Below, piece by piece: positions 3,985-28,861 of a stretch of DNA of 37,975 nt (positions are counted from its first letter, which is position 1; every line of letters starts with the position of its first letter). Position numbers and translations under genes: made by a program. The notes below the pieces were generated by a model, which was not told where the DNA came from, ran no database searches, and saw only the letters and a program-made list of their open reading frames with translations. Origin of the DNA: Clostridia bacterium. Its GTDB lineage: Bacteria; Bacillota; DULZ01. The stretch lies in the NCBI GenBank assembly GCA_012840125.1, contig DULZ01000065.1:1-37975 (forward strand), given 5' to 3'.

Positions 3985-5710
3985 CAGCCGCCACCTCCTG
4001 CCCCCACTGGGACCGGTAGATATCCCGGTAGAGAGAACTTTGCGCCAGTAAACCGGCGTGGGTACCGGTGGCCTCGATGACCCCGTTGTCCAACACAATA
4101 ATCTGATCCGCTTCCATGACGGAGCTGATCTTTTGAGAGATGACGATCCTGGTGCACGGTCCCAGGTACTCTTTCAGGGACTGCCTCAGCTTCGCTTCCG
4201 TCACCGCATCCAGGGCGCTGGTGCTGTCATCCAGGATGAGCACGGCGGGCCGGCGCAGCAGGGCCCTGGCAATGGCCAAACGCTGTTTCTGTCCCCCGGA
4301 CAGGTTAACCCCCCGCTGGCCTAAAACAGTGTCATACCCATCAGGCAGGCTCATGATGAATTCATGGGCCTGGGCAGCCTGGGCGGCCCGGATAATCTCC
4401 TCCATGGCCGCGTCTTCCCTGCCCCAGCGGATATTCTCCGCCACGGTGCCGGAAAACAGGGTTATTTCCTGGGGCACGATCCCAATGCCGCTCCGCAGCT
4501 GGTTCAGGCGGTAATCCCTCACATCAACCCCGTCCACCAGGACGCGACCACGGGTCACATCGTAAAAACGAGGGATCAGCAGGCTCAAAGTGGTCTTCCC
4601 GGCCCCGGTACCGCCTATGATGCCCACTACGTGCCCGGGTTTAATGTGCAAATTGATGTTTTCCAATACCGGCGCCCCGGCTCCGGGATATTGGAAATAA
4701 ACTTTTTCAAACACGATTTCTCCCCTGGTAACTTTCCCGGGCACCGGCCGGGTTGTTTCCCGGATTTCACCTGCCGCCGTCAAGATTTCATTAATGCGGG
4801 AAGCAGAAGCCTTAGCCCTGGAGAGAGCCATCAGGACGAAAACCACCAGCATTAATGCAAACAGGATTTGGGACACGTAATTGATAAAAGCCATGACCTG
4901 GCCCACGGTCATTTCCCCGGTGTCCACTTTGATGCCGCCAAACCAGAGGATGGCTACGATGCTGGCATTCATGACCAGCATCATGATAGGCATCAAGGTG
5001 GAAACCACCCGGGAAGCCCGGATATTCATCCGGGCCAACTGCTCGTTGGCATCGCGAAAACGCTCCTTTTCCTTATCCCCCCGGACGAATGCTTTGACTA
5101 CCCTCACCCCTACCAGGTTCTCCCGCATCACTGCGTTCACCCGGTCGATGCGCTCCTGCACCAAGGCAAATAAGGGATAGCTTTTATTGATGACCACCCA
5201 CAAGGTCCCGGCCAGCAAGGGTATCGTCACCAGGATGATCAGGGATAGCCCGGGATTAAGGGTGGCAGCCATCGCCAACCCGCCCAGGGCCAATAGAGGG
5301 GCCCGGATCATGGCCCTTAACATCATCATGACCGTATGCTGGACCTGGGTGATGTCATTGGTCAAGCGGGTAATCAGGGAAGGAGTACGAAACTCATCCA
5401 GTTTGGCAAAAGAAAAGGACTGTACTTTGGTGAAGGCCGCCAGTCTCAAATCGGCACCGAACCGCTGGCTGGCAATACTGGAGGCCACAATGCCGCCCAT
5501 GCCGCCGGCCAACCCGATGACCGCCAGGCCTAACATCAAGAGCCCCACCCGCAAGATGTAGGCCACATCCCCCTGCACCACCCCGTAATCGATGATCCTG
5601 GCCAGCAATAGGGGCAGCAGCAGGTCCATACCTACTTCCACCATCATGCACAAGGGGCTTAAGACGGCTATTCTCCAATGTTTCCACAAAAAAGACAAGA
5701 GCCGGAGCAC
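3977..5710 (-). CDS. Heterodimeric ABC exporter, degenerate-site half (permease-ATPase fusion)
   Basis: This 577-residue permease-ATPase is translated just before, and overlaps by 8 bases, the other exporter half. Six membrane helices span about 10-300. Walker A (GGTGAGKT, 366-373) and LSGGQ (470-474) are intact. The Walker B segment reads LILDDS, so Asp495 replaces the catalytic Glu, and the H-loop has Gln526 instead of His (ISQKISS). These are the known hallmarks of the non-hydrolysing site in TM287/BmrC-like subunits, so this half is expected to bind ATP and power transport only with its partner. I chose GTG 5710 because GAGGTG lies six bases upstream; the in-frame GTG at 5719 overlaps that site and would add three residues. 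Confidence 0.9.
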   Translation of the reverse strand: MLRLLSFLWKHWRIAVLSPLCMMVEVGMDLLLPLLLARIIDYGVVQGDVAYILRVGLLMLGLAVIGLAGGMGGIVASSIASQRFGADLRLAAFTKVQSFSFAKLDEFRTPSLITRLTNDITQVQHTVMMMLRAMIRAPLLALGGLAMAATLNPGLSLIILVTIPLLAGTLWVVINKSYPLFALVQERIDRVNAVMRENLVGVRVVKAFVRGDKEKERFRDANEQLARMNIRASRVVSTLMPIMMLVMNASIVAILWFGGIKVDTGEMTVGQVMAFINYVSQILFALMLVVFVLMALSRAKASASRINEILTAAGEIRETTRPVPGKVTRGEIVFEKVYFQYPGAGAPVLENINLHIKPGHVVGIIGGTGAGKTTLSLLIPRFYDVTRGRVLVDGVDVRDYRLNQLRSGIGIVPQEITLFSGTVAENIRWGREDAAMEEIIRAAQAAQAHEFIMSLPDGYDTVLGQRGVNLSGGQKQRLAIARALLRRPAVLILDDSTSALDAVTEAKLRQSLKEYLGPCTRIVISQKISSVMEADQIIVLDNGVIEATGTHAGLLAQSSLYRDIYRSQWGQEVAADV

Positions 5711-5800: not shown

Positions 5801-6316
5801 GTGAGTAGGGGTCAAATTCATATTTATACCGGCAACGGCAAAGGCAAGACCACGGCCGCCCTGGGCCTTTCTTTAAGAGCGGTCTGTGCCGGCAAGAAAG
5901 TCTATTTCGGTCAATTTGTCAAAGGGATGGATTACAGCGAATTAAAAGCACCCGCTTACCTGCCCGGATTTGAAATGCACCAGTTCGGCCGCGGCCGTTT
6001 CATTTACAATAAGCCGGCTGAGGAAGACATCGCCGCGGCGAGACAAGGTCTGGAAACCTGCCGCCAGGTGCTTTTGGCCGGTCGCCATGACCTGGTAGTA
6101 TTAGATGAACTTAACATTGCTTTATATTATAAGCTTTTTAGCGTGGAAGAGGCAATTGAATTGATCAAGTGCAAGCAGGAAGCCACGGAACTGGTCATCA
6201 CCGGGAGGTACGCCCCGCCGGAATTAATAGAATTAGCCGACCTTGTCACGGAAATGACGGAAATCAAGCACTACTATACGCAAAATGTGCCCGCCCGGGA
6301 GGGCATAGAGTTCTAG
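5801..6316 (+). CDS. cobO: Cob(I)alamin/corrinoid adenosyltransferase (CobO/BtuR type)
   Basis: The 171-residue protein begins HIYTGNGKGKTTAALGLSLRA, containing the family's modified P-loop GNGKGKTT near residue 12. It also has the conserved FGQFVKG, a Walker-B-like LVVLDELNIAL segment and ELVITGRYAPPELIELADLVTEM close to the C terminus, all typical of CobA/CobO/BtuR. The enzyme transfers the adenosyl group from ATP to Co(I) corrinoids in the cytoplasm. The start is GTG 5801 behind AAGGAGG; longer in-frame starts lack such a site. It is the only gene between its promoter and a strong terminator. It fits the corrinoid enzymes at the right end of the window but is not linked to them. Confidence 0.9.
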   Translation: MSRGQIHIYTGNGKGKTTAALGLSLRAVCAGKKVYFGQFVKGMDYSELKAPAYLPGFEMHQFGRGRFIYNKPAEEDIAAARQGLETCRQVLLAGRHDLVVLDELNIALYYKLFSVEEAIELIKCKQEATELVITGRYAPPELIELADLVTEMTEIKHYYTQNVPAREGIEF

Positions 6317-6334
6317 ACCTTTATTTAACAAAGA

Positions 6335-6380
6335 CTAAAGGCCGGTTCTCACCGCCAGCAGGGTGAGAACCGGCCTTTAG
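6335..6380. terminator. Bidirectional terminator, 19-bp perfect stem
   Basis: CTAAAGGCCGGTTCTCACC (6335-6353) pairs perfectly with 6362-6380 around an 8-base loop. It lies between the convergent cobO and phoU stops, with A/T runs on both flanks, and would end transcription from both sides. Confidence 0.85.
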
Positions 6381-6381
6381 C

Positions 6382-7041
6382 TTAGTTCAGGCGGATGCGG
6401 TTCCCGGAAACCTCGTAAATGACCAGCTCCCCGATATTGGTGGCATGATCGCCGACCCGTTCCAGATGCCTGGCCACCAGCAGCAAATAGGTAGCCTGTG
6501 ACACGGTTTTGGGATCTTGCATCATGATGAGCAGGAGTTCCCGGAATACCTGATCCCAAAGACTGTCCATTTCTTTTTCCATCGAAAACAGCCCCTCAGC
6601 TTTCTCCTCACTGCCCCCCACATAAGCGTCCAGGGCTTGCCTGGTCATCCTTTGGGCTATTTCCGCCATCCTGGGAATGTCAATGAGGGGCTTGATGTAC
6701 GGCTCCTTTAGCAGCCCCTGGGCAATCTCGGCTACATTAACGGCCAGATCAGAAATCCTTTCCAAGTCCGTGGCCAGCTTAATGGCCGCAAAAATCATCC
6801 GCAGGTCTTTCGCCAGGGGCTGCTGCCGGGCAATGAGACTTACGCAGCGGTCTTCGATCTCCAATTGCAGCCGGTCCACCGCCTCATCCCGGTCAATGAC
6901 TTGTTGAGCTAAAGTACCGTCTTTATGCACCAGCGCAGCGACGGCTTCTGCAATCTGCCCCTCTACCAGGCCGCCCATGTACAAGAGCTGTCGCTGGAGC
7001 GCTTCCAATTCCCCTTGAAAAGCAGTTCTGGTGGGAACCAT
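6382..7041 (-). CDS. phoU: Phosphate-specific transport regulator PhoU
   Basis: The 219-residue, all-helical protein carries two copies of the PhoU three-helix bundle. The metal-binding E/D-rich motifs are visible as DLERISDLAVNVAE in the first half and RHLERVGDHATNIGE in the second. PhoU links the phosphate transporter to the PhoR kinase and keeps the regulon off when phosphate is ample. The start is ATG 7041 behind AAGGAGGTG; a 32-residue upstream extension overlaps pstB and is not like PhoU. It is the last gene of the pst-pho operon, 13 bases after pstB, and ends in the 6335-6380 terminator. Confidence 0.93.
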   Translation of the reverse strand: MVPTRTAFQGELEALQRQLLYMGGLVEGQIAEAVAALVHKDGTLAQQVIDRDEAVDRLQLEIEDRCVSLIARQQPLAKDLRMIFAAIKLATDLERISDLAVNVAEIAQGLLKEPYIKPLIDIPRMAEIAQRMTRQALDAYVGGSEEKAEGLFSMEKEMDSLWDQVFRELLLIMMQDPKTVSQATYLLLVARHLERVGDHATNIGELVIYEVSGNRIRLN

Positions 7042-13495: not shown

Positions 13496-14635
13496 TCAGG
13501 GCTTGAAAAGGCTGGACCTTTTAATAGTCCCTTTACCGTACTTATCATTAAGCTGGTCTACCAATTGGGCCAGCTTAATTTCTTTTTCTTTCCGGTCATC
13601 GAAGAGGCTGAGCTGCCTCCCCTGCTCCAGGTTGGAAACCTGGATTCCGACCAGGCGAATGGGAGCCAGGTTTTTCAAAGACAGGTAAAGTTCCCTGGCA
13701 GCGGCGAAGATATCTTGATCGGTATAGAATAAATCTTCCGAGGTACAGGACCTGGTAATGGTTTTAAAATCCGCATACCTGATTTTCAGGGTGACGGTCC
13801 TGGCCAAATGACCGGATTTTCTCAGCCGGTAACCTACTTCTGCACTCAAGCCGTTTAGAATCGACAGCACTTGTTTCTCATCCGTCACATCCTCCGGCAG
13901 GGTTTCCTCCCGGCCGATGGATTTCCGTTCCCGGTCCAGGACCAGAGGCCGGTCATCCCGCCAGTGGACGTAGTCATACATTTCTTCGCCCCAGCTGCCG
14001 AATTCCCGCAAGAACCATTCCCGGGGATAAGCAGCCAGCTGGGCGATGGTTTCAATCCCATAACCTTTCAGTTTCTCCGCCGTCTTTGGTCCGATGCCGG
14101 GAATGAGCCGGACGGAATGGCCGCCCAGTTTTTCCGGCGCTTCTTCGGGCCAAATGGCCAGGCAGCCGTCGGGCTTGGCCAGGCCGCTGCTGATTTTCGC
14201 CAGGAGCTTGTTGCTGCTCACCCCGATGGAAACAGCCAGGCCCAGCTCTTCTCGCACCGCTTTGCGGATGGACCGGGCCACGGCCAGGCCGGTGCCCCGG
14301 TTTACCTCTAAGTAGGCCTCGTCGATGGAAACCTCCTCTATAAGAGGGGTGAACCGCTGGTAAATGGCCACCACTTTCCGGGACATCTCCTTGTACCTCT
14401 TGAAGTTCACCGGCAGGAAGATCCCATGGGGGCACAGCTTCTTCGCCATGAACATAGGCATGGCGGACCGCACCCCATAGGCCCGGGCCTCATAGGAACA
14501 AGTTGACACCACGCCCCGGCCGCCGGGGTCCCCGCCCACGATCACCGGCTTACCTTTTAGCTGGGGATGATCCAATTGCTCCACCGAGGCAAAAAAAGCA
14601 TCCAAATCACACAATAAGATGTCCCCGCGTTTCAT
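13496..14635 (-). CDS. dinB: DNA polymerase IV (Y-family translesion polymerase)
   Basis: The 379-residue protein carries the Y-family catalytic motifs: CDLDAFFASVEQ (D10) and SIDEAYLEV (D105, E106). YEARAYGVRSAMP and SNKLLAKISSGLAKP are also typical, followed by helix-hairpin-helix residues LIPGIGPKTAEKLKGYGI and a little-finger domain. A sliding-clamp-binding motif QLSLF sits at about 341-345. The enzyme copies past damaged DNA with low fidelity. Starts at 14647, 14641 and 14635 are all possible with weak ribosome sites; the shortest best fits the family. No LexA box was identified upstream. Confidence 0.93.
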   Translation of the reverse strand: MKRGDILLCDLDAFFASVEQLDHPQLKGKPVIVGGDPGGRGVVSTCSYEARAYGVRSAMPMFMAKKLCPHGIFLPVNFKRYKEMSRKVVAIYQRFTPLIEEVSIDEAYLEVNRGTGLAVARSIRKAVREELGLAVSIGVSSNKLLAKISSGLAKPDGCLAIWPEEAPEKLGGHSVRLIPGIGPKTAEKLKGYGIETIAQLAAYPREWFLREFGSWGEEMYDYVHWRDDRPLVLDRERKSIGREETLPEDVTDEKQVLSILNGLSAEVGYRLRKSGHLARTVTLKIRYADFKTITRSCTSEDLFYTDQDIFAAARELYLSLKNLAPIRLVGIQVSNLEQGRQLSLFDDRKEKEIKLAQLVDQLNDKYGKGTIKRSSLFKP

Positions 14636-14649
14636 GTCCATCACCATCT

Positions 14650-15834
14650 TTATTTTAACACTATTTGACAGCGCTGCAGCAAGTTTTCGCTCGTCGTCTT
14701 GATGTTGGTGATGGCTTGGGAAATATCACCGATGGCGCCTTTCTCCTGCATGGATAAGGTAGCGATATTCTCGATGTGCTCCTGATTCACCTTCATTTCG
14801 TGGGCCAGCTGTTCCAGGGCAGGTGCAATATCCCCCACCACTTGATGCATGTTATCCACATAGGACTTGATCCGGTCGGCGGAAGCCTGGCTGTCATTGG
14901 CCAGCTTCCTCACTTCCTGGGCCACGACGCCAAATCCCCTGCCTAAATCCCCGGCTCTTGCCGCCTCAATGGCCGCATTCAAAGCCAGCAGGTTGGTTTG
15001 CCTGGCAATGTTCCTAATGGTATCCATCACCGCATTGATGCTGTCGGCCGCTTTGACCAGTGAATCAGCAATGGTGTAAAGATGATTGATATTGGCCACG
15101 TCTTCCGCAATCTTGGTCACTACCGCCGTGACCGTGATACCCGTATTCTCAATGGATTTATCCATCTCCTGAATAGCTGCGGTGATTTCCTCAATCTGGT
15201 CATTCAAGTTTTGGGAAATCTGCTGGGTTTCGCTGACCAGGCGCTCATAGTTAACCCGCAAAACACCTTTGATGACTTCCTTTGTACTGTCATAAGTGGC
15301 AATTCTCCTGGCAGCGATGATCACTGCCTCTTTAGGCACATACCCATCGTACTTGACACGGAGCATCCCCTCGGGTCCTACCATGGTCTCCGCACCGGCT
15401 ATGTACTTGGCCGCCGCCAATCCTGCCGCCACTTCCTCCTCCGGCATCTCATTGTAAGCGATGACTTCATATTTGAGATGGTCTAACCCCTTCTGGCGGC
15501 AATACTCGATGATTTTATTCCCCTGGGCGAAATTGTTGTTGAACACAACGACCGTGGCACCCGCCGGCAGCCTGGCCAGGGCCAGGTAGAAAGGAGTATC
15601 CGGAACCAGTTCCAGGGCGACTATTTTATCCCGGGGCACACCTTTTGAGACAACTTCATCCACTCTGGTGGGTAATGCCACAAATAAGTCCGCCATGGCG
15701 GGATCCTGTAAAGCTTTGACCGGGATGCCCCCGGCGGCGACTTCATCGCCGAAAATATCTTTGACCACGGCCAACAATTCCTGGGCGATAATTTCCGTGC
15801 TGCCTACCGTCATGACTCTTATTTTTGCTTCCAT
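14650..15834 (-). CDS. Soluble methyl-accepting chemotaxis-like protein with N-terminal ligand-sensor domain
   Basis: The 394-residue protein has no membrane helix. Residues about 1-185 are an alpha/beta region (RVMTVGSTEIIAQELLAVV..., VVVFNNNFAQGNKIIEYC) that loosely resembles PrpR-N-type sensor domains; this resemblance is from memory and unproven. Residues about 200-394 are a chemoreceptor signalling hairpin with the conserved tip TNLLALNAAIEAARAGDLGRGFGVVAQEVRKLA. It would signal through CheA/CheW from the cytoplasm, or act as a methyl-accepting-type regulator. ATG 15834 follows GGGAGTG. It is downstream of no obvious operon partner; dinB follows 14 bases later. Confidence 0.8.
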   Translation of the reverse strand: MEAKIRVMTVGSTEIIAQELLAVVKDIFGDEVAAGGIPVKALQDPAMADLFVALPTRVDEVVSKGVPRDKIVALELVPDTPFYLALARLPAGATVVVFNNNFAQGNKIIEYCRQKGLDHLKYEVIAYNEMPEEEVAAGLAAAKYIAGAETMVGPEGMLRVKYDGYVPKEAVIIAARRIATYDSTKEVIKGVLRVNYERLVSETQQISQNLNDQIEEITAAIQEMDKSIENTGITVTAVVTKIAEDVANINHLYTIADSLVKAADSINAVMDTIRNIARQTNLLALNAAIEAARAGDLGRGFGVVAQEVRKLANDSQASADRIKSYVDNMHQVVGDIAPALEQLAHEMKVNQEHIENIATLSMQEKGAIGDISQAITNIKTTSENLLQRCQIVLK

Positions 15835-19622: not shown

Positions 19623-19650
19623 GGGCTGCCGGGAGTTTTCCCGGTAGCCC
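19623..19650. terminator. Terminator hairpin shared by the hydrogenase operon and the icd fragment
   Basis: A 12-bp stem (GGGCTGCCGGGA / TCCCGGTAGCCC with one G-U pair) around GTTT lies between the convergent hydrogenase operon and the icd fragment. An identical copy is found at 23001-23028, where it belongs to the complete icd. Confidence 0.85.
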
Positions 19651-19657
19651 TTCATGG

Positions 19658-20030
19658 TTATCGGAGGTTCTCCGCCAATCGCTTGGCGATTTCTTTTAAG
19701 AAGCCCTCGGTGTTGACCACCGTGATATTGTCCATCTCCGCCAGGGCGGCTAAGTCCTTGGTCATGATGCCTTCCTCAATGGTTTGAATGGAGGCTTTCT
19801 CTAAAGCACCGGCAAAGGTTACCAGATCCGGTAGGTTGTCCAGCTCTCCCCTTTTGCGCAGAGCACCGGTCCAGGCAAAGATGGTAGCCATGGAATTGGT
19901 GGAGGTCTCTTCCCCTTGCAAGTGCTTGTAATAGTGCCTGGTCACGGTGCCGTGGGCCGCTTCGTATTCAAAATGGCCCTCGGGGGACACCAGCACCGAG
20001 GTCATCATGGCCAAGCTGCCGAACGCCGCC
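19658..20030 (-). pseudogene. icd: 3' fragment of isocitrate dehydrogenase gene, 5' part missing
   Basis: About 124 C-terminal codons of NADP-dependent isocitrate dehydrogenase ([20 protein letters not shown] onward, ending KRLAENLR) match the intact gene at 23036 with only six amino-acid changes in that stretch. Upstream of codon 1 of the fragment the sequence turns into the 3' end of ssrA read backwards. An ATG further up would give a chimeric frame ([19 protein letters not shown]...), which is an artefact of the tmRNA sequence. The fragment lacks the substrate-binding half and cannot be an enzyme. The excess of silent changes shows that it diverged while still under selection, so it is not a fresh local copy. 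Confidence 0.9.
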
Positions 20031-20033
20031 ACC

Positions 20034-20070
20034 CGGACAGGGGTTCGACTCCCCTCGCCTCCACCAGACA
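20034..20070 (+). repeat. 37-bp copy of the ssrA 3' end (attachment-site-like)
   Basis: These 37 bases are identical to 28823-28859, the T-arm, acceptor end and CCA of the intact tmRNA gene plus four bases beyond, in the same orientation. The 3' end of ssrA is a well-known integration target of tyrosine recombinases. No recombinase gene is present in the window, so this is a relic rather than a demonstrated att site. Confidence 0.88.
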
Positions 20071-20177: not shown

Positions 20178-21377
20178 TTACACTTCCCGCATGCGTACTG
20201 CCACTTCTCTGTTAATGCGCCCCAGTACCGTCACGAGACTCAGTTCGCTCTTTTTCTTTTTCAGACTATCCGCTAGTCGCCCGGCGACATGACAAGCAGA
20301 AGTTAAGATAATTCTCGGTACTGGGACCGCTTCAACATCACCGAGGCTGGGAACGTGGTAATCAAAAAGCAGCTCTTGGCTGAAAGTTCGAAGGATACTG
20401 GTTGGTAGACCATCAATAAGTATACGCTCCCTTTCCAGCACCAGTTCCTCCACTTCTTTGAGCACCGGCCAAAACAGAGGTGACTTGCCGGCATTATGTC
20501 CTCGGACTTCCAATAAGTTCTTAGCTACCAAAAGGGTAACCACTTCATGAGCAACAGCCACCCGCACATTATGTTTTTCAATCCGCTGCAGACCAAAATA
20601 ATGATTGAACTCCTTGTTCACTTCCCGCTCCAGTTGCTGACGCAGTTCATGGAGTTCCGTCTCGTGAACCCTGTCTCCTTCAGCTAGTTGCAGCTCTTTT
20701 AGGTCTTGCCAGGACCGGATCAACACCGCTTTTCTCTTTCCACCGGATTCTTGGCACACGGCAGCCAAAGCTACTACTTCTACCTCTTCTAATTGGGGCA
20801 CTGGAACCGTCAATTTGGTTATGCAAGTAGGCAGATCATACTGGCTAAAATAATCCAAAACAGCATCGAAGACAGGATCTCCATAGGAAGCAAAATGTAC
20901 CTTAGCAGTACCGTCAGCCAAGCCTTCTTCGTAAAGTTCCCGTGAAATTGTTAACACAACGTCGGCAGCCACTCCCGGTACACCCGATATTTTCAAACCT
21001 TGACGGCCGTTTTGTCCGATTATTTCACACCCCAAGGAACGTAGATGCTCCGATTCCACCAGCGTGGTCCAAATATCTTCCAGCGTAACCGGTGATGAAA
21101 TGCCGTCAATCGCTTTACTCATCCTTTGATAAATCTCGTACAATTCCCCAGCGCTGAGCTCCATACTTTCGGTACGTTGTCGTTGGGCGACCAATCGTTC
21201 CCTGGCTCTGGCCTCCAATTCTTCCGGTGTCAAAATACCTTCAGCCAGTTGGCGAAAATCTTCCGGTTCTACAGGAAGCAGGGATATTTGCTGGGTTCCG
21301 ACAATGAGACTAGCTTCTGAGAGCCTTTTCAGCAGTCTATTGTAGACAATTTCTTCCGCTACCAGGTAAATCCATTC
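20178..21377 (-). pseudogene. 5'-truncated gene, possibly the C-terminal part of a large SNF2/DEAD-type helicase
   Basis: The frame is open from 21377, just after an in-frame TAA, to 20178. It has no good start: the best internal one is a TTG at 21233 without a clear ribosome site, which would give 351 residues. The upstream codons (YLVAEEIVYNRLLKRL ... SLLPVEPEDFRQLAEG) look like the end of a helicase C-lobe, where a conserved Glu-rich helix leads into an accessory region. The rest (LTISRELYEEGL, FASYGDPVFDAVLDYF, and many charged helices) resembles C-terminal extensions of large phage-defence-type helicases. This is from pattern memory, not a search. No motor motifs remain, so it is probably a remnant of a much longer gene. 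Confidence 0.5.
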
Positions 21378-21608: not shown

Positions 21609-21636
21609 TTGTAGAAAATTGTAATCCATCTAATAC
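21609..21636 (+). promoter_or_regulatory. Possible promoter of the DUF3467/nuclease/DUF2283 cassette
   Basis: TTGTAG (21609-21614) and TAATAC (21631-21636) are 16 bases apart and lie about 40 bases before the first ATG. Both boxes are imperfect. The preceding 230 bases (21378-21608) hold no gene or repeat that I can support. Confidence 0.35.
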
Positions 21637-21674
21637 CTCAAATGGAAAAAGAATAAACAAAGGAGGTTATCCCA

Positions 21675-21977
21675 ATGGAACACGAAAAGCAATGCTTTTC
21701 ACCTATAACAGATGAAAGGTCATGTTTCTCAGTGTATTGCAACTCCTTAAGTGTAGGGTTCAGCCTCTATGACTTTGAAATAATTCTTAGGGAAAAATTC
21801 AACAACAACGAAAAACAGCTAGGAATAATAAAAATGAGTCCTCAGCATGCAAAAGTCTTCGCCCAAATCTTAAATGATAACATAGCTGTGTACGAAAACA
21901 TTTTTGGTCCCATACCTGAACCGAAAGAAGAGAAGCTGCGGGAAGCTCAAGAGAAAGGAGAAATCAACATTGGCTAA
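21675..21977 (+). CDS. DUF3467-like small protein
   Basis: The 100-residue protein fits DUF3467: CFSVYCNSLSVGFSLYDFEIILRE at the front (a 'YaNs... s.~DF' pattern), then MSPQHAKVFAQILNDNIAVYENIFGPIPEP (the 'SPqHAK ... YE..FG.I' pattern). The family's function is unknown. The ribosome site AAAGGAGGT is very strong. It is the first gene of an AT-rich three-gene cassette and ends 20 bases before the nuclease-like gene. Being first with the strongest ribosome site, it could be a regulator or antitoxin for the cassette; that is inference. Confidence 0.7.
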   Translation: MEHEKQCFSPITDERSCFSVYCNSLSVGFSLYDFEIILREKFNNNEKQLGIIKMSPQHAKVFAQILNDNIAVYENIFGPIPEPKEEKLREAQEKGEINIG

Positions 21978-21997
21978 CCTTAAAGGTGAAGAATAAG

Positions 21998-22408
21998 ATG
22001 AACATTGGCAACAAACCCGAAATCATCTTTAGCACTACTGATCCGTTAGGTCGAACAGTTCAGCTAAAAGCCACCACATGGTATAATCATATTACCGGAG
22101 GGCATCATAAACGTATAGAATTGGTTGGTCAGGAAAATACTGTTAAAGAAGTAATAGAAGACCCCGCATTCATATTGCCAAACAACCCTGAGGATGTCTC
22201 AGATACGCGCCAGAAATACGTAGATTTAGTTACTCTTCCTCATCTTAAAAGACTTACATATCTCGTTGTGGTCGTAGATTATAATACAACTGATGGTAGC
22301 GGTGATGTCGTAACTGTCATCCCCAAAAAGAAAATTCAGGAATCAGTAGAAGGAGGGATAATCTATGTTCGCGCAAAAATTGGCAAGAGTGGAAGGGATC
22401 GAGTTTAG
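21998..22408 (+). CDS. BECR-fold nuclease-like protein (PBECR type), candidate toxin
   Basis: The 136-residue protein resembles the phage-type Barnase-EndoU-ColicinE5/D-RelE-like nucleases. It has an early His-rich helix (TTWYNHITGGHHKRIEL), then TVKEVIEDPAFILP, a strand LTYLVVVVDYN, and DVVTVIPKKK as the last strand. In this family the His and the Ser/Thr before the final strand are thought to form the active site. ATG 21998 is chosen because AAAGGTGA lies eight bases upstream; the GTG at 21986 falls inside that site. The end overlaps the DUF2283-like gene by 44 bases. Target RNA or DNA is unknown, and an inactive or non-toxic member is possible. Confidence 0.6.
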   Translation: MNIGNKPEIIFSTTDPLGRTVQLKATTWYNHITGGHHKRIELVGQENTVKEVIEDPAFILPNNPEDVSDTRQKYVDLVTLPHLKRLTYLVVVVDYNTTDGSGDVVTVIPKKKIQESVEGGIIYVRAKIGKSGRDRV

Positions 22409-22628
22409 TTATGATTATTTGCATGATGTTCTTTACATCTACTTTGGCGAACCTAGGCCTTCCTTCTCTGAAGAAATAGCTCCTGGTTTTTTCATCAGCC
22501 TCTCCGAGGATGATGAGACACTCACAGGAATTATAATTATTGACTACAAAAAGAGAGATAAAGATTTCCTAGCTGCCAAAGCACCGATTAGTATTGACTT
22601 CGACAGAATTAATGCTATGCTTCATTAG
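22365..22628 (+). CDS. DUF2283-like small protein, candidate antitoxin/immunity protein
   Basis: The 87-residue protein matches DUF2283: EFSYDYLHDVLYIYFGEPRPSFSEEIAPGFFISLSEDDETLTGIIIIDYKKR (shown here only in its order: YD..DVLYI strand, acidic turn, GI.I.D strand). It has its own strong site AAGGAGGG six bases before ATG 22365, inside the 3' end of the nuclease-like gene, so the two are probably translated together. DUF2283 genes are often found beside small toxin-like genes, but their function is not established. The protein is acidic in its middle part, as expected for an inhibitor of a nucleic-acid-binding enzyme. Confidence 0.7.
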   Translation: MFAQKLARVEGIEFSYDYLHDVLYIYFGEPRPSFSEEIAPGFFISLSEDDETLTGIIIIDYKKRDKDFLAAKAPISIDFDRINAMLH

Positions 22629-23000: not shown

Positions 23001-23028
23001 GGGCTGCCGGGAGTTTTCCCGGTAGCCC
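23001..23028. terminator. Terminator of the intact icd
   Basis: The hairpin is identical to 19623-19650 (12-bp stem, GTTT loop). It lies seven bases after the icd stop on the minus strand. Confidence 0.8.
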
Positions 23029-23408
23029 TTCATGGTTATCGGAGGTTCTCCGCCAACCGCTTGGCGATTTCTTTTAAGAAGCCCTCCGTATTGACTACCT
23101 TGATATCGTCTATCTCCGCCAAAGCGGCCAAATCTTTCGTCATAACCCCTTCTTCTATGGTTTGAATGGAGGCTTTCTCTAAAGCACCGGCGAAGGTTAC
23201 CAGATCCGGTAGGTTGTCCAGCTCTCCCCGCTTGCGCAGAGCACCGGTCCAGGCAAAGATGGTGGCCATGGAATTGGTCGAAGTTTCCTCCCCTTTTAGA
23301 TGTCTGTAATAGTGCCTGGTCACGGTGCCGTGGGCCGCTTCGTATTCAAAATGGCCCTCGGGGGACACCAGCACCGAGGTCATCATGGCCAGGCTGCCGA
23401 ACGCCGCC
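23001..23408. repeat. Diverged duplication, copy 2 (inside intact icd and its terminator)
   Basis: This is the counterpart of 19623-20030. The homology covers the last 124 codons of icd and the terminator but not the flanks on either side. Confidence 0.9.
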
Positions 23409-28506: not shown

Positions 28507-28855
28507 GGGGGCGTACTGGTTTCGACGGGGGAATGTATTGGCAAAAGTAGCCAGGCGGGGTCCCACTAGCCCGTAACACGGTGGACCAACATTAAGTGCC
28601 AAAGAAAATTACGCTTTAGCTGCTTAATTCAGCTAACCTCCTACCTTCGCTCTCCCGCGGCGTAGGATAGGGGGCCGACCAGCGGGATACTTCAGGCCCA
28701 CGATCCGCTAAGCCTGGGGGAAAACCAGCGGATTAGTCGGAAGTAGATCCTGTCCTTGGGAGCTATTTCCGGCGAAAGTAAAACAAGGACTATCCTGGTA
28801 GAAGCTTTTGTGGGTACTCCTTCGGACAGGGGTTCGACTCCCCTCGCCTCCACCA
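28507..28855 (+). ncRNA. ssrA: Transfer-messenger RNA (tmRNA, SsrA)
   Basis: The 5' end GGGGGCG pairs with CGCCTCC before the 3' CCA, forming the acceptor stem. GACGGGGG (D-loop region) and GGTTCGACTCCCC (T-arm, GTTCGA loop) are present. The tag frame reads GCC AAA GAA AAT TAC GCT TTA GCT GCT TAA at 28598-28627, giving AKENYALAA, a normal degradation tag. A TATAAT sits at 28490-28495. It tags proteins from stalled ribosomes for proteolysis. Its last 33 bases plus four flanking bases recur at 20034-20070. Confidence 0.97.
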
Positions 28856-28861
28856 GACATA

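Follow-up and report, generated by a model that had tools for sequence, protein, structure and literature searches.

Do three small adjoining genes of a Clostridia bacterium form a toxin-antitoxin or defence module, and if so, which of them encodes the toxin and which its inhibitor? The window, that is, the whole stretch of DNA analysed (37,975 nucleotides, contig DULZ01000065.1), carries the following features in and around these genes.

21675 to 21977, forward strand: gene 1, DUF3467 protein of 100 aa, strong Shine-Dalgarno AAGGAGG (Pfam PF11950, phrog_7919)
21998 to 22408, forward strand: gene 2, solo PBECR-like predicted RNase of 136 aa, weak Shine-Dalgarno (sub-threshold PBECR2 match, AlphaFold, BFVD, conservation)
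22365 to 22628, forward strand: gene 3, DUF2283 protein of 87 aa, candidate antitoxin (PF10049, phrog_36767, AlphaFold)
22349 to 22367, forward strand: embedded ribosome-binding site and gene 3 start (GAAGGAGGGATAATCTATG), within the gene 2 codons for EGGIIY(V/E/D)R
19623 to 20030, reverse strand: duplicate of the icd (isocitrate dehydrogenase) 3' end, 408 bp, 92% identical to 23001-23408 (protein 93%)
20034 to 20070, forward strand: exact copy of the ssrA (tmRNA) 3' end, candidate attachment-site remnant, 37/37 identical to 28823-28859
20178 to 21233, reverse strand: apparently truncated gene of 351 aa on the same island, without a family match

The cassette and its island

The first-pass annotation had described three small same-strand genes of the DUF3467, BECR and DUF2283 types. 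They are present as described, and Pfam backs genes 1 and 3: gene 1 matches DUF3467 at E 2.7e-8 (34.2 bits against a cut-off of 25) and gene 3 matches DUF2283 at E 2.3e-6 (28.1 bits against 23). The same two genes fall in PHROGs families without assigned function, at E 4.5e-11 for phrog_7919 and E 2e-21 for phrog_36767. The overlap of 44 bp between genes 2 and 3 is exact, and the AT-rich island is seen as a GC content of 38% against 50-55% around it. An earlier start of gene 2, at an in-frame GTG at 21986, is possible. The very strong ribosome sites claimed for all three genes were found for genes 1 and 3 (about -12.3 and -12.2 kcal/mol) but not for gene 2 (-4.3 kcal/mol).

Neither gene 2 nor DUF2283 has a second significant copy elsewhere in the genome. 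A promoter and terminator scan gave no convincing promoter for the trio, and no inverted repeat lies upstream of it in the window; AT-rich inverted repeats are found upstream in some relatives. PDB sequence searches with all three families returned chance hits only. No cassette gene matched PADLOC at E <= 1, and a link to the PADLOC defence systems was rejected for want of matches.

The recombination scars reported beside the cassette were recovered as the icd duplicate and the ssrA repeat, which border the small island. The intact tmRNA gene occupies 28507-28855, and the ssrA copy, which lies 3 bp beyond the duplicated icd fragment, is a candidate for either an attachment-site remnant or part of a composite rearrangement. 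In a genome of the same family, icd is directly followed by a gene matching window 13926-14650 (dinB-like by sequence), so the intervening stretch of the window is an insertion or rearrangement. Both ssrA and icd are known phage integration sites, and the island resembles an integration at one or the other. No integrase was seen on it, and an assembly error in the draft is a possible source of the icd/ssrA junctions. The truncated neighbour at 20178-21233 had been called helicase-like; Pfam, NCBIfam and PADLOC place it in no helicase family, and tblastn against plasmids gave no match. Elsewhere in the window, an imperfect palindrome of about 61 bp lies at 6327-6387 (84% over 64 aligned columns), and a direct repeat of about 290 bp with 67% identity, probably paralogous coding sequence, lies at 2358-2646 and 4195-4483.

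Recurrence of the three-gene order

Profiles of the three genes identified the order DUF3467, nuclease, DUF2283 in 13 phage, plasmid and bacterial-genome records. These are the window, L003, L004, L005, L007, L011, L016, L019, L029, L031, L032, L035 and L039; L040 is the same record as L005, L033 is a near copy of L032, and L004 and L029 are close relatives. The recurrence of this order had been set beforehand as a check on the cassette, and the order recurs. The queries used to scan for trio loci were the closer nuclease pairs and DUF2283 or DUF3467 baits. An alignment of all the divergent nucleases contained no conserved stretch, and a scan with the window DUF2283 alone gave no matches. Gene 2 has homologues in a Staphylococcus phage, two plasmids (one of Anoxybacillus, one of S. 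nepalensis), several genomes of the same phylum and viral contigs. The first gene is a homologous DUF3467 gene in all intact trio loci, and all eight gene 1 homologues compared with PF11950 matched it (8/8); gene 1 of L011 lacks its N-terminal part.

The ten representative trios have a mean pairwise identity of about 30-33%, with minima of 16-23%. Identities this low mean that the linkage is old or has been selected repeatedly. Distances correlate best between genes 2 and 3 (Mantel r 0.68, ten loci), and gene 1 distances correlate less with those of genes 2 and 3 (r 0.45 and 0.55). Between L004 and L029, dN/dS is about 0.11, 0.06 and 0.02 for genes 1, 2 and 3; by this sequence comparison all three genes are under purifying selection. 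The nuclease and DUF2283 genes overlap on the same strand in 13/13 intact trio records and, to judge from the overlap, would be co-transcribed. Conservation of a small gene pair as a unit across replicons, as found here, is a criterion for type II toxin-antitoxin modules.

Among the phage and prophage contigs, the trio follows an amidase or holin gene in L019, L035, L039 and L005; in L004 and L029 it has a LexA-like repressor on one side and a serine recombinase on the other. Such phage positions are the usual places of lysogenic-conversion, immunity and defence genes. The trio is a genuine cassette, conserved time and again, and its carriers are mostly temperate phages, plasmids and genomic islands.

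The middle protein as a predicted PBECR-type nuclease

Gene 2 matches Pfam PBECR2 (PF18810) at E 7e-4 with 20.2 bits, under the cut-off of 27.1, and is filed as a relative rather than a member of that family because the cut-off was missed. Six of nine members of the nuclease family match PBECR2 at E <= 0.1, the best at 1.2e-4. An AlphaFold model of gene 2 built from nine sequences (pLDDT 87.4, pTM 0.82) has the order strand-strand-helix-helix-strand-strand-strand-strand, with helices at 25-32 and 46-54 followed by strands at 58-61, 71-80, 85-95 and 102-110. This agrees with the helix followed by four strands that defines the PBECR fold (PMC5512222).

H31, in the N-terminal helix, is kept in 14/15 family sequences and T106, in the last strand, in 15/15. 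The family also has a His at 36 or 37, and R71 and Y74 are nearly invariant. H31, H36, R71 and T106 are thus the candidate catalytic residues, and the His/Thr configuration is the one described for PBECR domains (PMC5512222). The structure check set beforehand for the BECR fold of gene 2 therefore came out in its favour, on the helix and four strands, the PBECR2 matches and the His/Thr residues. By predicted fold and residues, we file gene 2 as a solo nuclease of the PBECR clade. The nuclease encoded at L031:3493-4041 is extended at its N-terminus by an acidic stretch of about 60 residues.

A catalytically dead middle protein that joins its two neighbours in a regulatory complex binding RNA is very improbable. 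MuF of phage Mu is known to contain an inactive PBECR domain (PMC5512222), but the retention of H31 and T106 in 14/15 and 15/15 sequences and a gene 2 dN/dS of about 0.06 argue against such a loss.

A Foldseek search of gene 2 against PDB gave nothing significant (E >= 0.25), with RelE and HigB2 at E about 1. In BFVD, the best matches were to domains that form part of phage polyvalent and minor capsid proteins; the strongest had a probability of 1.0, but E values were only 1e-3 to 2e-2. These matches fit a phage accessory RNase acting on host defences or on phage or host mRNA, for which both DUF proteins would be cofactors or regulators and not parts of a toxin-antitoxin pair. The trio does occur in phage context, PBECR domains are otherwise phage effectors, and those in polyvalent proteins have been proposed to act against host defences or phage/host mRNA (PMC5512222). 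We nevertheless consider such a role unlikely. The trio genes are small, separate and not fused to virion proteins, and except in L031 they lie at late-end or immunity-region accessory sites and not in head-gene clusters. DUF4258, which is listed as a type II toxin family (PMC11980606), is likewise a partner of DUF2283.

Compared with solo PBECR nucleases of the PBECR2 family (PF18810; Iyer et al. 2017, PMC5512222), the trio nuclease shares the helix and four strands and the carriage by phages and mobile elements, and several trio nucleases match PBECR2. It differs in that the window nuclease scores under the cut-off and that the trio nuclease always occurs with DUF2283 and usually with DUF3467, whereas neither DUF was found near PBECR2-family genes in the same phylum (0/8 loci inspected).

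DUF2283 and DUF3467 as candidate partners of the nuclease

The AlphaFold model of gene 3 (pLDDT 86.4) is a six-strand sheet with two C-terminal helices. A fold search against PDB found no significant counterpart, and no DNA-binding or known antitoxin domain was recognised in DUF2283. The partial overlap with one chain of an EF-Tu/CdiA/CdiI entry (41 residues, E 0.74) was too weak to be accepted.

The DUF2283 genes in 200 genomes of the phylum often lie directly 3' of a small BECR-type gene. DUF4258-DUF2283 pairs without DUF3467 occur in L041, L042, L044, L048 and L056, and PBECR-like-DUF2283 pairs without DUF3467 in L050 and L018; the L050 nuclease is related to the trio nuclease (E 3e-14). 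In L051 and L047 a truncated PBECR-like gene lies 5' of DUF2283, again without DUF3467. DUF4258 is one of 13 BECR toxin families listed for type II modules, with its target given as unknown, and its modules are tabulated in antitoxin-first order (Gerdes 2025, PMC11980606). The pairs without DUF3467, together with the PBECR2 loci that have neither DUF, show that BECR-DUF2283 is a wider pairing. Judged from gene content, the trio is its DUF3467-containing variant. The role of DUF2283 as a partner of BECR-type proteins, suggested in the first-pass annotation, is well supported by both kinds of pair.

In all intact trios measured, the DUF2283 gene starts in the +1 frame inside the nuclease gene, and the overlap is 20-44 bp. 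The DUF2283 ATG starts at the second base of the TAT Tyr codon in the nuclease motif GG-I-I-Y-x-R, and the nuclease codons just 5' of this codon spell the GGAGG-type ribosome site of DUF2283. This arrangement was computed in 11 loci (the window, L019, L004, L031, L032, L035, L005, L003, L025/L016, L007 and L008/L022) and read from the sequence by eye in L011 and L039. The degenerate copies L023 (L009) and L024 (L010) still have it. As the ATG lies inside the TAT codon, the residue after Tyr always comes from a codon beginning with G, and conservation of Y123 may be partly due to the DUF2283 start codon and not to catalysis. Median predicted anti-Shine-Dalgarno pairing over ten loci is -8.5, -5.2 and -11.2 kcal/mol for genes 1, 2 and 3. 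The ribosome site is stronger for gene 3 than for gene 2 (p 0.002) and for gene 1 than for gene 2 (p 0.019).

In L009 and L017 a frameshift or truncation disrupts the nuclease, and in L010 two in-frame stops interrupt it; DUF2283 is open in all three. In L020, a staphylococcal-type phage contig, DUF2283 is intact at 6062-6310 and only the last 32 nuclease codons are left; its DUF2283 stretch is 93% DNA-identical to phage phiSP119-2. This orphan could be a stand-alone antitoxin that counters related modules. Among the loci examined, DUF2283 was never broken or missing where the nuclease was intact. Loss of the nuclease with DUF2283 kept is what a protective role of DUF2283 against the nuclease would predict. 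There are four cases only, partly from draft assemblies in which broken nucleases could be sequencing errors; they came from nuclease queries, a bias if anything toward intact nucleases.

We conclude that the cassette is probably a mobile module of the toxin-antitoxin type, with a PBECR RNase as toxin, DUF2283 as a neutraliser made in excess via the embedded start, and DUF3467 as an accessory. The middle protein would belong to the phage-BECR clade as a metal-independent RNase and would arrest growth by cutting RNA. DUF2283 would be the cognate antitoxin, produced in excess from the strong ribosome site in the last codons of the toxin gene, and would bind the nuclease and keep it inactive. DUF3467 would serve as a third partner, whether regulator, chaperone-like co-inhibitor or trigger sensor. 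Temperate phages and islands would carry the module to secure their own persistence or to shield the host cell from other phages. We infer RNase activity, toxicity, neutralisation by binding, the DUF3467 role and the benefit.

In favour of this reading we count the conserved order, the PBECR fold with its His/Thr residues, the ribosome-site strengths, the DUF3467-free pairs, the nuclease-only decay, the gene 2-3 distance correlation, purifying selection and the phage accessory-gene positions. Against it we count the sub-cut-off PBECR2 score, the lack of a significant PDB fold match, viral matches at E about 1e-3, a DUF2283 without DNA-binding or antitoxin domain or structural match, and the almost constant retention of DUF3467, for which a simple two-part model has no need.

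Another reading is that the upstream gene, DUF3467, encodes the true antitoxin, in the classic antitoxin-first order, with DUF2283 as the accessory. DUF3467 is 5' of the nuclease in every intact trio and its ribosome site is strong (median -8.5 vs -5.2 kcal/mol, p 0.019). However, PBECR-like and DUF4258 genes pair with DUF2283 in its absence, no nuclease was seen with DUF3467 but without DUF2283, and DUF3467 occurs without either partner in L062 and L067 and is present in control genomes as well. Its function is therefore not confined to the trio module, and we regard it as quite improbable that it is the antitoxin. A three-part, phage-borne defence module is possible, if doubtful. Here the PBECR RNase would be held by DUF2283 and released through DUF3467 as sensor or chaperone; the antitoxin ribosome site and start codon lie within the nuclease C-terminal motif, so the toxin would not be easily separated from its antitoxin.

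Known systems resemble the proposed toxin-antitoxin module in part. DUF4258-DUF2283 pairs likewise have a small BECR-type gene directly before or overlapping DUF2283, but they belong to another nuclease family, lack DUF3467 and have a canonical, not a trio-type, DUF2283. Type II RelBE and HigBA modules share a BECR-fold toxin with a small partner, overlapping genes and mobile carriage; unlike them, the trio has a third gene, no recognisable DNA-binding antitoxin and no significant RelE or HigB structural match. Tripartite toxin-antitoxin systems consist of a toxin, an antitoxin and a third regulator or chaperone. The trio is like them in its three-gene layout, but it has no HTH regulator or SecB-like chaperone and shares no families with them. 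In the literature searched, which had few of the subscription papers, we found no description of a nuclease-inhibitor-third-partner trio, no mention of DUF2283 and nothing relevant on COG5428 or PF10049, and a single mention of DUF3467 in an unrelated context.

The proposed module gives a directly testable role to two widespread uncharacterised families, DUF2283 and DUF3467. If true, the phage-BECR clade, so far known as injected or virion-linked effectors, would join the toxin-antitoxin systems, and DUF2283 would become an added antitoxin family that serves several distinct BECR nucleases. With its embedded ribosome site and start, the overlap also suggests a simple hypothesis for how toxin and antitoxin dosage could be locked together.

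Two further arrangements of these families were observed. At L036:3962-4654, and also in L037, a trio-type DUF2283 domain forms the N-terminus of a 231-aa phage protein; the C-terminal part of the L036 protein ends in a hydrophobic, membrane-like segment, and no adjacent nuclease was found there. On the reverse strand of L062, at about 1486-1749 of the reversed locus, a DUF3467 relative lies directly upstream of a gene for an SbcC/RecF-like ATPase.
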